Shown: piece after piece, positions 45,068 to 48,543 of the stretch
Numbering within the stretch: the stretch's first letter is position 1
Layout: each line of letters starts with the position of its first letter
NCBI GenBank assembly: GCA_903878085.1
Contig: CAIRGJ010000046.1
Span: 124,001-188,000, forward strand
Direction: 5' to 3'
Origin: an uncultured Hyphomicrobiales bacterium
Lineage (GTDB): Bacteria > Pseudomonadota > Alphaproteobacteria > Rhizobiales > Xanthobacteraceae
DNA length: 64,000 nt
Translations under genes and position numbers: made by a program
Notes under the pieces: model-generated
Database searches by the model: none
The model's input: only the letters and a program-made list of their open reading frames with translations
Told to the model about the DNA's origin: nothing

Positions 45068-45508
45068 CTAGAAACTGAATTCGGGAAGGGGGGTCTTCAG
45101 GCCATAGACGAAAGAAACATAGGTGAAGGCGACGATCGCGAGCGAATAAACGACGGCGCGTATCGGATTGCGCCGTTCGATCACCAGCAGCAGCGTGACC
45201 ATCATCAGCAGCATGGTGAAAAAGAAGCCGAGATGCTCATATAGCCCGATCGCAATGGAGGCGATCGCGGTCACCAGCAAGGCGTGCTTGCCGTCGTCCC
45301 AGGCCAGTTCGGAGAACGCCGGGCTTTCGCCGCCACGCAGCACCAGCAGTAGACCGAACAGGATGGTCAGGCTGGCGACGATCTTGGGCAGAAAGCCGGA
45401 CCCCGGCATCGACAATTGGCCGGTCGGCAGATCGCCGCTCAGCGCGATGATCGCCGCGCCGAAAATGACAAACGCGGCGCCGGCGACATGATCGGCTCGA
45501 AGCTTCAT
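45068..45508 (-). CDS. tctB: Tripartite tricarboxylate transporter small permease TctB
   Basis: 146 residues, four membrane helices (GAAFVIFGAAIIALS, LPKIVASLTILFGLLLVL, LVTAIASIAIGLYEHLGFF, VVYSLAIVAFTYVSFVYGL) with GQLSMPGSGFLPKI typical of TctB. Its ATG overlaps the stop of the DUF559 gene, and the hairpin of that cassette provides the GGAGGGG just upstream. So insertion of the cassette replaced the original translation start region. Confidence 0.9.
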   Translation of the reverse strand: MKLRADHVAGAAFVIFGAAIIALSGDLPTGQLSMPGSGFLPKIVASLTILFGLLLVLRGGESPAFSELAWDDGKHALLVTAIASIAIGLYEHLGFFFTMLLMMVTLLLVIERRNPIRAVVYSLAIVAFTYVSFVYGLKTPLPEFSF

Positions 45509-45942
45509 GTGGCGCCCCTCCCCCGCGAACGCTTGTGAGCGCGGGGAGGGGTCGGGGGTGGGGGGCCCTGAACCGCTTGCTCGGTCATTGCTTGGTGGAT
45601 GACGATCATGACGCCTTCAATATTGTCCATAACTTCGTGGTTCCAGAAATGTAGCACGCGATAACCGTTCGACTGCAAATAGTTGGATCGTTCGCAATCG
45701 CGTTCTACTGAGCTCGGTGCCGTGTGAGTTTCGCCGTCAATTTCAACGACGAGCCTTCTTTGATGACATGCAAAGTCCGCGAAAAATGGTCCAATCGGCG
45801 ATTGTCTCCTGAAGTGCGAGGAGCCGAAATCAATCTGTCTCAAGCACCGCCACAGCTTTCTTTCCGGCTCGCCGACTTCGCGGCGTAATGAGCGAGCCTT
45901 AGTAACGCGTTCGTGCCGGCCCTTTCGATTGGTTGCAATCAT
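45505..45942 (-). CDS. DUF559 endonuclease-domain protein (cassette A)
   Basis: 145 residues from ATG 45942. The DUF559/Vsr-like fold has ERKLWRCLRQ, FRRQSPIGPFFADFACHQ (44-61), VVEIDGETH (65-73; acidic residues fit the PD-(D/E)XK pattern) and GYRVLHFWNHEV (93-104). The last 20 residues (PPPPTPPRAHKRSRGRGAT) are read from the palindrome 45515-45564, so they are a by-product of the repeat. The gene is bracketed by 21-bp perfect inverted repeats. Its stop overlaps the tctB ATG. A close relative is at 47123. Nuclease activity is inferred from the fold. Confidence 0.88.
   Translation of the reverse strand: MIATNRKGRHERVTKARSLRREVGEPERKLWRCLRQIDFGSSHFRRQSPIGPFFADFACHQRRLVVEIDGETHTAPSSVERDCERSNYLQSNGYRVLHFWNHEVMDNIEGVMIVIHQAMTEQAVQGPPPPTPPRAHKRSRGRGAT
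45515..45564. repeat. Left end of cassette A: hairpin plus inverted repeat
   Basis: CCCCTCCCCCGC pairs with GCGGGGAGGGG (one bulge), then TCGGGGGTGGGGG. The hairpin covers the start region of tctB. Confidence 0.7.
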
Positions 45943-45949
45943 CGAACAG

Positions 45950-45989
45950 CCCCCACCCCCGACCCCTCCCACGCTGCGCGGGGGAGGGG
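45950..45989. repeat. Right end of cassette A: inverted repeat plus hairpin
   Basis: CCCCCACCCCCGACCCCTCC followed by C and ACGCTGCGCGGGGGAGGGG; inverse of the left end. Confidence 0.7.
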
Positions 45990-45997
45990 AGGAGAGA

Positions 45998-46978
45998 TTA
46001 TCCCTGCTTGCCGATGGAGATGACCGCTTCGTCGGTGCGCTTGCCGTCCTCGTCCCAGAATTTCTGGAAGTCCGGGCCGTCGAGATAGGCCAGTTCCTGC
46101 CCCGCATTGGCGAGCACGGTCAGAAAGGCTTCGCTGTGCGCAGCTTGCTTGATGGCGGCCCGCAGCGTGGACACGATCGGCGCCGGCGTCGCCTTCGGCG
46201 CGAAGATGCCGACCCACAGATAATACTCGACGTCGTAGCCGAGCTCCTTGAGCGTCGGCACGTCGGGCAAGAACTTGGAACGCGTAGCGCCGAACGAGGC
46301 CAGCGCGCGCAGCTTGCCGGATTTAACATGGGCCAGCGCCGCCGACACCGATTGCGTCGTCACTTGCGCGTTGTTGCCGAGGATCGAGGTGATGGCGGGA
46401 CCGCCACCATTGGTCGGCAAATGGCGCAGCTTCAGCGGGCCGGTCGCGCGCTCGAGATAGGCCAGCGGCAGGTGCGTCGCGCCGTAGAGCCCGCCGGAGC
46501 TGAACACCAGCGTGCTGTCCGGCTTCTTGGCGGCCTCGATGAATTCTTTCAGCGTCTTGTACGGCTGCTGGTCGTTGACCAGCAGCAGCACCGGGTCGGC
46601 GACCAGGCGCGCCAGCGTGACGAAATCGGAACGCGAGGTTTTCACCGGCCGGCCGAACAGCTTGTCGACCTCGGCGTAACCGGAGATCCCGGTGTTGTGC
46701 GACAGCAAGGTGTAGCCATCCGGCTTGGCGGTGGCGCCGACCTGGGCGCCGACCTGGCCGGCGGCGCCGGCTTTTGTCTCGACCACGATCGGCTGCTTGA
46801 GGATCGGCTCCATCGTCGAAGCCAGCGGACGGGTCACGATGTCGTTGATGCCGCCCGGAGGAAAGGCGTTGATGATGGTGATGGCATGCGAGGGAAAGGC
46901 ATCCTGCGCCAGGGCAGGGCCGGCCGCCAGCGCAGCGGCCGATGCGGTCGTGCCGATGACGAAACTGCGGCGATCCAT
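45998..46978 (-). CDS. Bug/TctC-family substrate receptor (copy 1 of the TTT locus)
   Basis: 326 residues from ATG 46978, preceded by GGAGG at five bases; an ATG four codons earlier is less likely. Signal MDRRSFVIGTTASAAALAAG with double Arg suggests Tat export. Mature part AFPSHAITIINAFPPGGIND and VETKAGAAGQVGAQ are Bug landmarks. About two thirds of residues match the receptor at 47560, so they are duplicates. It is the receptor most likely to serve the TctAB permease downstream, with cassette A in between. Confidence 0.92.
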   Translation of the reverse strand: MDRRSFVIGTTASAAALAAGPALAQDAFPSHAITIINAFPPGGINDIVTRPLASTMEPILKQPIVVETKAGAAGQVGAQVGATAKPDGYTLLSHNTGISGYAEVDKLFGRPVKTSRSDFVTLARLVADPVLLLVNDQQPYKTLKEFIEAAKKPDSTLVFSSGGLYGATHLPLAYLERATGPLKLRHLPTNGGGPAITSILGNNAQVTTQSVSAALAHVKSGKLRALASFGATRSKFLPDVPTLKELGYDVEYYLWVGIFAPKATPAPIVSTLRAAIKQAAHSEAFLTVLANAGQELAYLDGPDFQKFWDEDGKRTDEAVISIGKQG

Positions 46979-47082
46979 TGAATCCTCCAATCATTTATTT
47001 TGCCGAACGCGGCCGGCATTTTTTCAAAGTCTAGAGCAGGGCGGCCGATGCGCCAAACACCAAATGCGAAGCAGCGGTCGTT

Positions 47083-47119
47083 CCCCTCCCCCGCGTAGCG
47101 TGGGGAGGGGTCAGGGGTG
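47083..47119. repeat. Left end of cassette B
   Basis: Hairpin CCCCTCCCCCGCG/CGTGGGGAGGGG (47083-47110) followed by TCAGGGGTG. Confidence 0.65.
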
Positions 47120-47122
47120 CTG

Positions 47123-47500
47123 CTATCGATCGATGACCATTGATAATTGAATTGCTGTCATAACGCCGTCGAGATTTGTCATGACATCATCATTCAAGAA
47201 GCGAAGGACGCGGTAGCCCTGTGAACGAAAATAGTCCGATCTTGATTCATCGCGCGTGGTCGCTCCAGGCAAGGCGTGGGTTTCGCCATCGATTTCGATT
47301 GCAAGTCTGATTTGATGGCAGGCGAAGTCTGCGAAATAAGGACCTATCGGTGCTTGCCTGCGGAAGTGGGAACCGTCAATCGAACGAATATCTCTTAGGG
47401 CCCACCATAATTTTCGCTCTGGCTCAGTCATGTCGCGCCGCAGGCGACGAGAGTGCACGATACGTTCGTGACGCTTCTGTCGAAGAACGTTAGCTGTCAC
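47123..47500 (-). CDS. DUF559 endonuclease-domain protein (cassette B)
   Basis: 125 residues from GTG 47500; an ATG at 47527 lies inside the C-rich repeat and would add an all-glycine N-terminus, so the GTG is preferred. Family blocks are the same as in cassette A: ERKLWWALRD, FRRQAPIGPYFADFACHQ, IEIDGETH and GYRVLRFLNDDV. It is roughly 60% identical to the cassette A protein by eye. Here the C-terminus (LSMVIDR) stops before the repeat. Confidence 0.85.
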   Translation of the reverse strand: MTANVLRQKRHERIVHSRRLRRDMTEPERKLWWALRDIRSIDGSHFRRQAPIGPYFADFACHQIRLAIEIDGETHALPGATTRDESRSDYFRSQGYRVLRFLNDDVMTNLDGVMTAIQLSMVIDR

Positions 47501-47507
47501 GGCAATA

Positions 47508-47554
47508 CCCCCACCCCCACCCCCCACCCCACCCCACGCTTCGCGGGGGAGGGG
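47508..47554. repeat. Right end of cassette B
   Basis: Runs of CCCCCAC ending in CCCCACGCTTCGCGGGGG and AGGGG; the strongly C-biased run could be prone to slippage. Confidence 0.6.
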
Positions 47555-47559
47555 AGTCG

Positions 47560-48543
47560 CTATCCCTGAACGCGGCCGATGTCGCGCACGGCATCTTCGA
47601 TGCGCGCGGCGTCGGCATCCCAGAATTTGGCGAATTCCGGCGCATCGAGATATTCGACCTCCTGGCCGAGATTGGTCATGGCATTTTTGAACGTGTCGGT
47701 GTCCGCGGCCTGCTTGAGCACGGTGCGCAGATAAGTGATGACCGGCTGCGGCGTGCCTTTGGGCGCGAACATGCCGACCCAGAGATAATATTCGACGTTG
47801 TAGCCGAGCTCTTTCATGGTCGGCACGTCGGGCAGCGCCTTGGTGCGATTGGCGCCGAACAGCGCCAGCGGCTTGGCCTTGCCGGCCTTGATCTGCGCCA
47901 GGCAGGCCGACACCGACGACACCAGCACTTGCGCATTATTGCCGAGGAACGAGGTGAGCGCCGGGCCGCCGCCATTGGTCGGCAGATGGCGGAATTTCAG
48001 GCCGCCGGCGGCCTTCATGTACAGCGCCATCGGGATATGCAGCGCGCCGTAAAGTCCCGACGAACTGAAGATGATCTGATCGGGCCGCTTCTTGGCGTCG
48101 TCGGTGAGATCCTGCAGCGTCTTGTAGGGCTGCTGGTCGTTGACGATCAGCACGCAGGGGTCGGCGACAAAGCGCGCGATCGGAATGAAATCGGCACGGG
48201 TGAACTTGACCGGCCGGCTGAATAGCTTGTCGACTTCGGCAAAACCGGAGATCGAGGTGATGTGCGACAGTAGCGTGTAGCCGTCGGGCTTGGCTGAGGC
48301 CGCGACCTGCGCACCGACCGCGCCGGCGGCGCCGGCTTTGGTTTCGATCACCACCGGCTGCTTGACGATCGGTTCGAGCACCGCGGCGAGCGGGCGCGTC
48401 ACGACGTCGGAGGCGCCGCCGGGCGGAAACGGGTTGATGACCGTGATGGCGTGCGACGGATAGGCGTCCTGCGCGAAAGCCGGCCGAACGGTAAGGCTTG
48501 CGGCGGCAGCGGCGCTGCCGCCAACGAATGTGCGTCGGTCCAC
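47560..48543 (-). CDS. Bug/TctC-family substrate receptor (copy 2 of the TTT locus)
   Basis: 327 residues with the double-Arg signal MDRRTFVGGSAAAAASLTVR, then DAYPSHAITVINPFPPGGAS and VIETKAGAAGAVGAQ. It is highly similar to the receptor at 45998 (TNGGGPA, NVEYYLWVG, LPDVPT, GLYGA and KPDGYTLLSH blocks). TGGGAGGGA precedes the ATG. Two receptors for one permease could broaden substrate range. Confidence 0.93.
   Translation of the reverse strand: MDRRTFVGGSAAAAASLTVRPAFAQDAYPSHAITVINPFPPGGASDVVTRPLAAVLEPIVKQPVVIETKAGAAGAVGAQVAASAKPDGYTLLSHITSISGFAEVDKLFSRPVKFTRADFIPIARFVADPCVLIVNDQQPYKTLQDLTDDAKKRPDQIIFSSSGLYGALHIPMALYMKAAGGLKFRHLPTNGGGPALTSFLGNNAQVLVSSVSACLAQIKAGKAKPLALFGANRTKALPDVPTMKELGYNVEYYLWVGMFAPKGTPQPVITYLRTVLKQAADTDTFKNAMTNLGQEVEYLDAPEFAKFWDADAARIEDAVRDIGRVQG

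Follow-up and report, generated by a model that had tools for sequence, protein, structure and literature searches.

DUF559 nuclease genes framed by inverted triplex-type repeats as candidate small mobile units

Can a nuclease gene, together with the short repeats on either side of it, constitute a mobile unit? The question is raised by a 64-kb stretch of contig CAIRGJ010000046.1 (positions 124,001 to 188,000; assembly GCA_903878085.1) from an uncultured bacterium of the Hyphomicrobiales, here termed the window, in which two genes encoding DUF559 proteins each lie in a unit of about 475 bp. Both match the Pfam DUF559 model (E values of 2e-32 and 2.9e-32), the related family MTES_1575 being matched below its cut-off, and both units, referred to here as cassettes A and B, have ends that are inverted copies of a hairpin with a G-rich tail, the tail directed towards the gene. 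A first-pass annotation of the sequence had recognised these two units correctly and had likened them to a nuclease gene that moves together with palindromes of its own, after the manner of repetitive extragenic palindromic (REP) elements and their RAYT enzymes. The framing of the gene and its filled and empty sites agree with that proposal; the ends, in turn, have the layout of the TM repeats described below, unlike REPs of the GTAG and CGTC types, the enzyme has no relationship to RAYT, and movement driven by DUF559 is something that we infer. We consider it rather probable that the cassettes are small mobile units, forming a RAYT/REPIN-like system built on an unrelated PD-(D/E)XK nuclease.

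Each end consists of a stem, a 3-base loop and a purine tail mirroring the stem's 3' arm; of 9 mirror positions, 9, 8 and 8 agree at three of the window ends and 6 at the left end of cassette B. The original description of hairpin or palindromic ends is correct as regards the hairpin, to which a mirror-symmetric purine tail has to be added, such that these are not plain palindromes. A pattern representing stem and tail, GGGAGGGGTCRGGGGTG, matches the window four times when up to three mismatches are allowed, always at a cassette end with the tail geneward, where shuffled sequences predict 0.33 matches; the 4.4 Mb genome from which the window derives (the source genome) has 38 matches with up to two mismatches, as against one for the reversed pattern. 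A hairpin with a purine 3' arm, a short loop and a mirror-symmetric purine tail, found in many copies of which some form inverted pairs, is characteristic of box C / PIT / TM repeats (hereafter TM repeats), and all of these properties are seen in the source genome. The cassette ends have the layout of these intrastrand-triplex motifs and are by that layout predicted to be triplex-forming. TM repeats have been reported from over 260 bacterial genomes, with the E. coli motif forming an intrastrand triplex in vitro; their mobiliser was not known, and in the available part of that 2015 account the authors never found mobility functions near the E. coli sites (PMC4666352).

The repeats also occur without the gene, as the first-pass annotation had asked: 33 of the 38 matches in the source genome are on contigs lacking a DUF559 match. 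The gene-less set comprised 23 of the 38 (seven further sites were retrieved and set aside, as DUF559 ends, a contig end or second members, and eight were not retrieved), and at 16 of the 23 there is an inverted partner within 160 bp that scores above the highest of 23 controls, three reaching a stricter partner score of 18. When inspected, the four ends in the window and the source-genome copies printed showed neither a GTAG nor a CGTC tag. Repeats from five sources had no Rfam match at the gathering threshold, on which ground a known RNA family was rejected as their identity, and against chance or base composition stand the shuffled sequences, the reversed pattern, and the sets of 640, 600 and 800 control segments and the Vsr genes described below. 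At one position in the source genome (C23:138825-139455; L029), an inward-facing pair of the same repeats surrounds a gene of the anthrone-oxygenase family (PF08592) and not DUF559, which may reflect chance or a captured passenger. At the Bug/tctB junction of one relative (G206; L150), a lone TM repeat precedes a palindrome of another kind, which contains CGTCATGCCCGG and recalls REPs of the CGTC type. Repeats termed Br-REP1 and Br-REP2 have been described in Bradyrhizobium (PMC5082802).

DUF559 genes are bordered by inverted repeats far more often than control segments are, as had been anticipated. In a first set of relatives, the best 80 of 363, three loci were too close to a contig end for scoring, and 64 of the remaining 77 had a flank inverted-repeat score that reached at least the 99th percentile among 640 control segments; the median score was 34, compared with a control mean of 10.9. 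A strict TM detector, for which five of the 80 loci of the first set, two of 30 in a family set and three of 30 Vsr loci were dropped and the controls came from the first set only, found an inward repeat on at least one side at 50/75, 21/28 and 19/30 loci in the first, family and phylum sets respectively, and on both sides at 34/75 and 14/28 in the first two. Among 800 control segments there were at most 4 (0.5%) such repeats for any side and direction, and none had inward repeats on both sides. The detector found no inward repeat at any of 27 Vsr loci, and the inverted-repeat score of Vsr genes is at most 15. We used this score as the main measure because the strict detector misses lineages in which a second hairpin lies between stem and tail: it gave no inward hit at 25 of the 75 first-set loci, and an inward hit at 24 of 57 loci in the genus.

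The cleanest comparison is that between stand-alone and fused-type DUF559 genes within the genus, for which 28 genomes of at least 90% completeness were sampled. These have 0 to 7 stand-alone matches each (E below 1e-29), with none in seven genomes. Of 64 such matches 60 were retrieved, the rest being the two window genes, one locus already seen (L157) and one that was omitted. Fifty-seven of the 60 could be scored: 48 score above 20, a limit taken from the controls of the phylum-set comparison, 56 are framed by score or by an inward repeat, and the fifty-seventh is framed by eye. By comparison, a DUF559 protein with a long frame (362-522 amino acids) is found once per genome in 27 of the 28, and none of the 20 loci retrieved from these 27 is framed. 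In the source-genome copy (C41:8747-9052; L004), the only one for which Pfam confirmed the fusion, DUF559 forms the C-terminal domain of a SpoU-type methylase, an arrangement also noted in PMC1829167; the fused type may represent a domesticated copy.

Empty sites in relatives, which the mobility proposal had called for, were found alongside filled ones at four junctions. Between Bug2 and Bug1 the source genome has 569 bp, including cassette B; in all ten of the relatives compared, each with both Bug genes, this junction is 57-124 bp long and has no DUF559 gene. Since it is empty in these ten, cassette B is younger than the Bug pair and not part of a Bug duplication, and the same ten relatives show cassette B to be, as far as such comparisons go, a gain in the lineage of the source genome. 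It could have been supposed that A and B descend from a single old insertion copied through tandem duplication of a Bug gene plus cassette, both cassettes following a Bug gene in the same orientation and Bug1 and Bug2 being 64.5% identical. With the Bug2-Bug1 pair of ten relatives joined by a cassette-free junction, this origin was rejected, and we regard it as very improbable; the double occurrence reported in the first-pass annotation thus stands as two cassettes, and not as a tandem duplication.

The Bug/tctB junction was found at 12 loci in the 40 genomes searched, three of which have a full cassette (the source genome, G199 and G208); a single repeat is present at one locus and a truncated repeat at another, and the remaining seven lack both cassette and repeat. 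At 26 of 27 pheT loci the pheS/pheT junction could be counted: in 17 cases the genes overlap by 4 nucleotides, four have a cassette, one a short repeat-like remnant and four other DNA without DUF559. For glyS, 25 of 28 loci were counted, and 3 of these have a DUF559 gene in the 900 bp upstream, the source genome having just 67 bases upstream of this gene. It probably holds a fourth glyQ/glyS cassette, divided over two contigs, judging from their ends: C9 terminates in glyQ, repeats and a truncated DUF559 gene, and C21 starts with a repeat and glyS. At this junction the cassette of G127 is in the repeat style of the window, while G211, G214 and the source genome have another type of nuclease together with another style of repeat. 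The first 570 or so bases of C9 (C9:1-570; L003) look AT-rich and unrelated to the remainder, and this contig is possibly chimeric, with the glyQ/glyS cassette cut by the join. The reading that the cassette moves is well supported.

The type of repeat also tracks the type of nuclease. Across 145 loci (those used in the matrix, of 153 proteins kept; two short family loci and one with an internal stop were dropped), the similarity of the proteins correlates with that of their flanks (rank r = 0.40), as it does when limited to pairs under 65% identity (r = 0.36); in both cases none of 300 permutations was as high. For 121 of the 145, the flanks resemble those of the closest protein relative below 70% identity more than those of the median other locus. 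Sites common to related hosts may account for part of this correlation. The nearest relatives of A and B have the repeat style of the window, and the DUF559 gene on C9 is closest to that of L145 and to genes of the Rhizobium/Agrobacterium group, with the same repeat style by eye. In 36 of 51 comparisons within a genome, the left end of an element was a better match to its own right end than to the right ends of other elements, the medians being 32 and 16.

What kind of enzyme is encoded? The best match in a profile search was 3hrl, a putative endonuclease-like protein (8.5e-33), with the catalytic domain of the homing endonuclease I-Bth0305I (3r3p, an entry carrying the name 'mobile intron protein') at 1.3e-5. 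Foldseek, run with an AlphaFold2 model (pLDDT 85), placed the same two entries on top, 3r3p having a value of 2.4e-4, and E. coli Vsr (1vsr) fifth at 5e-3, after a mitoribosome protein. The alignment of 48 sequences has eleven invariant columns (R21, E28, W32, R48, A57, D58, F59, E69, D71, G72 and H75); with E28, D58, E69, D71 and H75 among them, and with the match to 3r3p, the family agrees with an EDxHD / PD-(D/E)XK catalytic fold, EDxHD being the name of this nuclease type. The predicted fold is PD-(D/E)XK-like, near I-Bth0305I and Vsr, and YcjD, the E. coli member, had been assigned to the PD-(D/E)XK superfamily by 2005 (PMC1189080). The median ratio of non-synonymous to synonymous substitution rates for stand-alone copies is 0.11 (from the 23 of 47 pairs with a finite synonymous rate, the other 24 being saturated), indicating that these genes are under purifying selection. 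Against the Vsr model TIGR00632, the protein of cassette A scores 24.6 bits, the cut-off being 97.85, and that of cassette B has no match; no match to PF03852, the Vsr family, was found in the source genome. None of the 28 genomes of the genus has a match above the cut-off to the Y1_Tnp model, which covers RAYT and IS200-like enzymes (G522 has one below it), and mobilisation by enzymes of the RAYT/IS200 type within the genus was rejected on this ground.

RAYTs are Y1 HUH transposases, and in RAYT systems the type of repeat pairs with the type of enzyme. The cassettes resemble REP/REPIN systems in having a low-copy nuclease gene edged by its own inverted palindromes, many single or paired copies elsewhere without the gene, and the same pairing of repeat type with enzyme type. 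They differ in that no Y1 HUH transposase is present in the unit, where the enzyme is instead PD-(D/E)XK-like, and in that the repeats have triplex-type tails and no GTAG or CGTC tags; PMC3733652 describes RAYT and TIRYT genes and, in its available part, CGTC repeats without an association to transposase genes. With TM repeats they have in common the pyrimidine-purine hairpin, short loop, mirror-symmetric G-rich tail, many intergenic copies and inverted pairs. The available part of PMC4666352 names no associated gene for those repeats, whereas the cassette repeats frame a nuclease gene and vary in sequence by lineage. I-Bth0305I is the second-best fold match after 3hrl, but the cassettes that we compared are intergenic and bounded on both sides by inverted repeats, whereas a homing element of that kind would lie in an intron or intein within coding sequence or home into the empty coding allele. 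Vsr has a related fold, but its genes are unframed. The methylase fusion of PMC1829167 shares the Pfam domain, but is an unframed, single-copy type.

The movement of such a unit might proceed as follows. The cassette would be a gene for a PD-(D/E)XK-type nuclease, similar to Vsr and to EDxHD homing endonucleases, inside inverted TM repeats with inward G-rich tails, and the gene-less pairs and single repeats in intergenic DNA would be its non-autonomous derivatives. The nuclease would recognise its own type of repeat, as hairpin, triplex or duplex, and cut either the repeat or a target beside the end of a gene; repair or copying would then install the cassette, or a bare pair of repeats, at the new site. 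This would parallel RAYTs and their REPINs, by means of a homing-type nuclease and repair. That the nuclease drives movement, including cutting and the choice of target, we infer by analogy.

The main rival holds that DUF559 is a host-serving nuclease of repair or maintenance, similar to Vsr, that the adjoining repeats are terminators or structures processed by it, and that it is not a mobility gene. We consider this unlikely, yet it has points in its favour: the predicted fold is similar to that of Vsr, the genes are under purifying selection, some cassettes sit between otherwise tightly joined genes such as pheS and pheT, and VsrA of Caulobacter, a DUF559 protein, has been argued to be a mismatch-repair enzyme, being induced with the DNA-damage response and damaging when the methyltransferase ScmA is missing (PMC12907096). 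A repair role is hard to reconcile with the patchy presence of stand-alone genes in the genus, including their absence from a quarter of its sampled genomes, and with empty sites at gene pairs that otherwise overlap; neither Vsr genes nor fused-type DUF559 genes are framed, and the source genome has no PF03852 match. Slightly less probable still, in our judgement, is that some other factor spreads the repeats, DUF559 being a passenger or a gene tolerant of flanking insertions. The pair around the anthrone-oxygenase-family gene could be read in this way, as could genomes rich in repeats without a DUF559 match (G073, G094, G145 and G077 with 32, 37, 21 and 23 respectively for two repeat patterns). 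Three of these belong to a single genus of the family (f1, g41), in which type II repeats number 30 (G073), 33 (G094) and 20 (G145) with no DUF559 match, and where another enzyme or a recent loss may be responsible. Standing against another factor are the near-complete framing within the genus, which contrasts with the rarity of inward repeats in control segments, the tracking of nuclease type by repeat type, and the genus genomes' want of any Y1/RAYT candidate above the cut-off (the weak match in G522 apart).

Several of these observations, and others besides, weigh against mobile units driven by DUF559; the argument for VsrA as a repair enzyme and the repeat-rich genomes without DUF559 are among them. 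Across 198 genomes of the family, two repeat patterns have a median of 3.07 matches per Mb in the 150 whose DUF559 match is strong (E under 1e-25) and 0.58 in the other 48, with a within-genus permutation p of 0.0002; correcting for two repeats per DUF559 match shrinks these medians to 1.30 and 0.25 (p = 0.006) and brings the within-genus p to 0.023. This link between copy number and gene is present but loose, and does not by itself show DUF559 to be the mover, a looseness that would be expected if repeats outlive their enzyme. No target-site duplication, such as a classical IS or MITE would leave, could be recognised by eye at the filled pheS/pheT and Bug/tctB junctions, the relatives being too diverged to provide base-exact empty sites, and neither transposition nor cleavage has been observed. 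DUF559 genes without flanking repeats, which the first-pass annotation had taken as evidence against its proposal, do exist, as the long-frame subfamily and as some distant stand-alone copies. In the phylum set framing is weaker, with only 12 of 30 inverted-repeat scores exceeding all of 600 controls and strict inward repeats on both sides in just 4 of 30; repeats that point outward are frequent in this set too (10 on the left, 7 on the right). Six of 12 plasmid or phage loci have weak or no framing, five scoring at most 11 and one 16. At the E. coli gene ycjD, a single repeat lies 3' of the gene and is directed away from it, and the 139 bp printed on the 5' side contain no repeat, making ycjD a remnant case at best.

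Should the reading of the cassettes as small mobile units extend further, DUF559 proteins would be the missing mobilisers of the box C / PIT / triplex repeat superfamily across phyla. They would then define a separate kind of element, with triplex-repeat ends and a homing-type PD-(D/E)XK enzyme in place of a DDE, HUH, serine or tyrosine one; stand-alone copies would be autonomous masters, TM pairs their miniature derivatives and methylase-fused DUF559 a domesticated form. We put this forward tentatively, as an extension with slightly less than an even chance of being right. The 12 plasmid and phage loci, chosen from 49 records with hits, include framed examples from distant hosts: plasmids of Deinococcus have scores of 21, 50 and 54, one of Pseudanabaena 57 and those of two alphaproteobacteria 24 and 29. 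On two Deinococcus plasmids the DUF559 gene lies at different junctions of a similar hpa gene cluster. Clear framing was seen at one of the four cyanobacterial plasmid or phage loci, that of Pseudanabaena. On three cyanobacterial plasmids with unclear framing, DUF559 adjoins DUF1156 (L222 and L226) or the BREX methyltransferase PglX (L229), and these genes possibly represent a defence-linked subfamily. Carriage by phages was set aside, only 2 of 50,697 phage records having a DUF559 relative, of which the one retrieved was without inverted-repeat framing.

In E. coli, ycjD lies at the fabI-sapF junction (L115 and L218), where part of the species instead carries the eefRABCD operon (PMC12817139), and one box C repeat adjoins it. 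A search with the K-12 ycjD stretch found at least 80% of its length covered in 3333 of 5426 E. coli genomes. Repeat counts at this site were not used for inference because phylogroup confounds them.

Within the window, the genes on the minus strand run in the order Bug2, DUF559-B, Bug1, DUF559-A, tctB and tctA, the last of these named by position and sequence without a database search (Table 1). The inverted repeat of cassette A, first reported from the sequence as 21 bp long and perfect, is indeed present at 45544-45564 and 45950-45970; that of cassette B extends over 38 bp with 89% identity (47082-47119 and 47518-47555). As had also been noticed, the C-terminus of gene A is encoded through the left repeat, its stop codon overlapping the start of tctB, while the open reading frame of gene B terminates ahead of its repeat. 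The spacing of 6-8 bases originally given between each Bug stop codon and the following cassette is, read by eye, right for A (8 bases), but about 4 for B.

Table 1. Coordinates of the two cassettes, their repeats and the neighbouring genes within the window
Feature	Position	Strand	Basis
Cassette A: DUF559 gene within two inverted TM repeats, Bug1/tctB junction	45515..45989	-	Repeat search; filled/empty comparison
TM repeat at the 3' end of cassette A; hairpin with TCG loop and a mirror tail, GGGGTGGGG, facing the gene	45515..45564	+	Mirror 9/9
DUF559 gene A, 145 amino acids	45505..45942	-	Pfam
TM repeat at the 5' end of cassette A, in opposite orientation to that at the 3' end	45948..45990	-	Mirror 8/9
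Cassette B: second DUF559 unit, Bug2/Bug1 junction; absent there in 10/10 relatives compared	47082..47555	-	
TM repeat with a short tail, 3' end of cassette B	47082..47119	+	Mirror test weak, 6/9
DUF559 gene B, 125 amino acids, GTG start, 58.6% identity to A	47123..47500	-	Pfam; AlphaFold2 model, pLDDT 85
TM repeat, 5' end of cassette B	47506..47555	-	Mirror 8/9
tctB, right-hand neighbour of cassette A, site marker	45068..45508	-	Pfam TctB
Bug1 (TctC family), separates the two cassettes	45998..46990	-	Pfam
Bug2 (TctC family), upstream of cassette B	47560..48543	-	Pfam

Among the matches listed in the open-licence literature, no title or abstract joined DUF559 to repeats of this kind. With a nuclease gene regularly situated inside such repeat pairs, the origin of the repeats becomes directly testable, and the cassettes point to what a common 'domain of unknown function' may do. 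A kind of repeat that has been described but not explained may have its missing spreader in DUF559; if so, a homing-type nuclease would join the short list of enzymes that spread palindromes through bacterial genomes.

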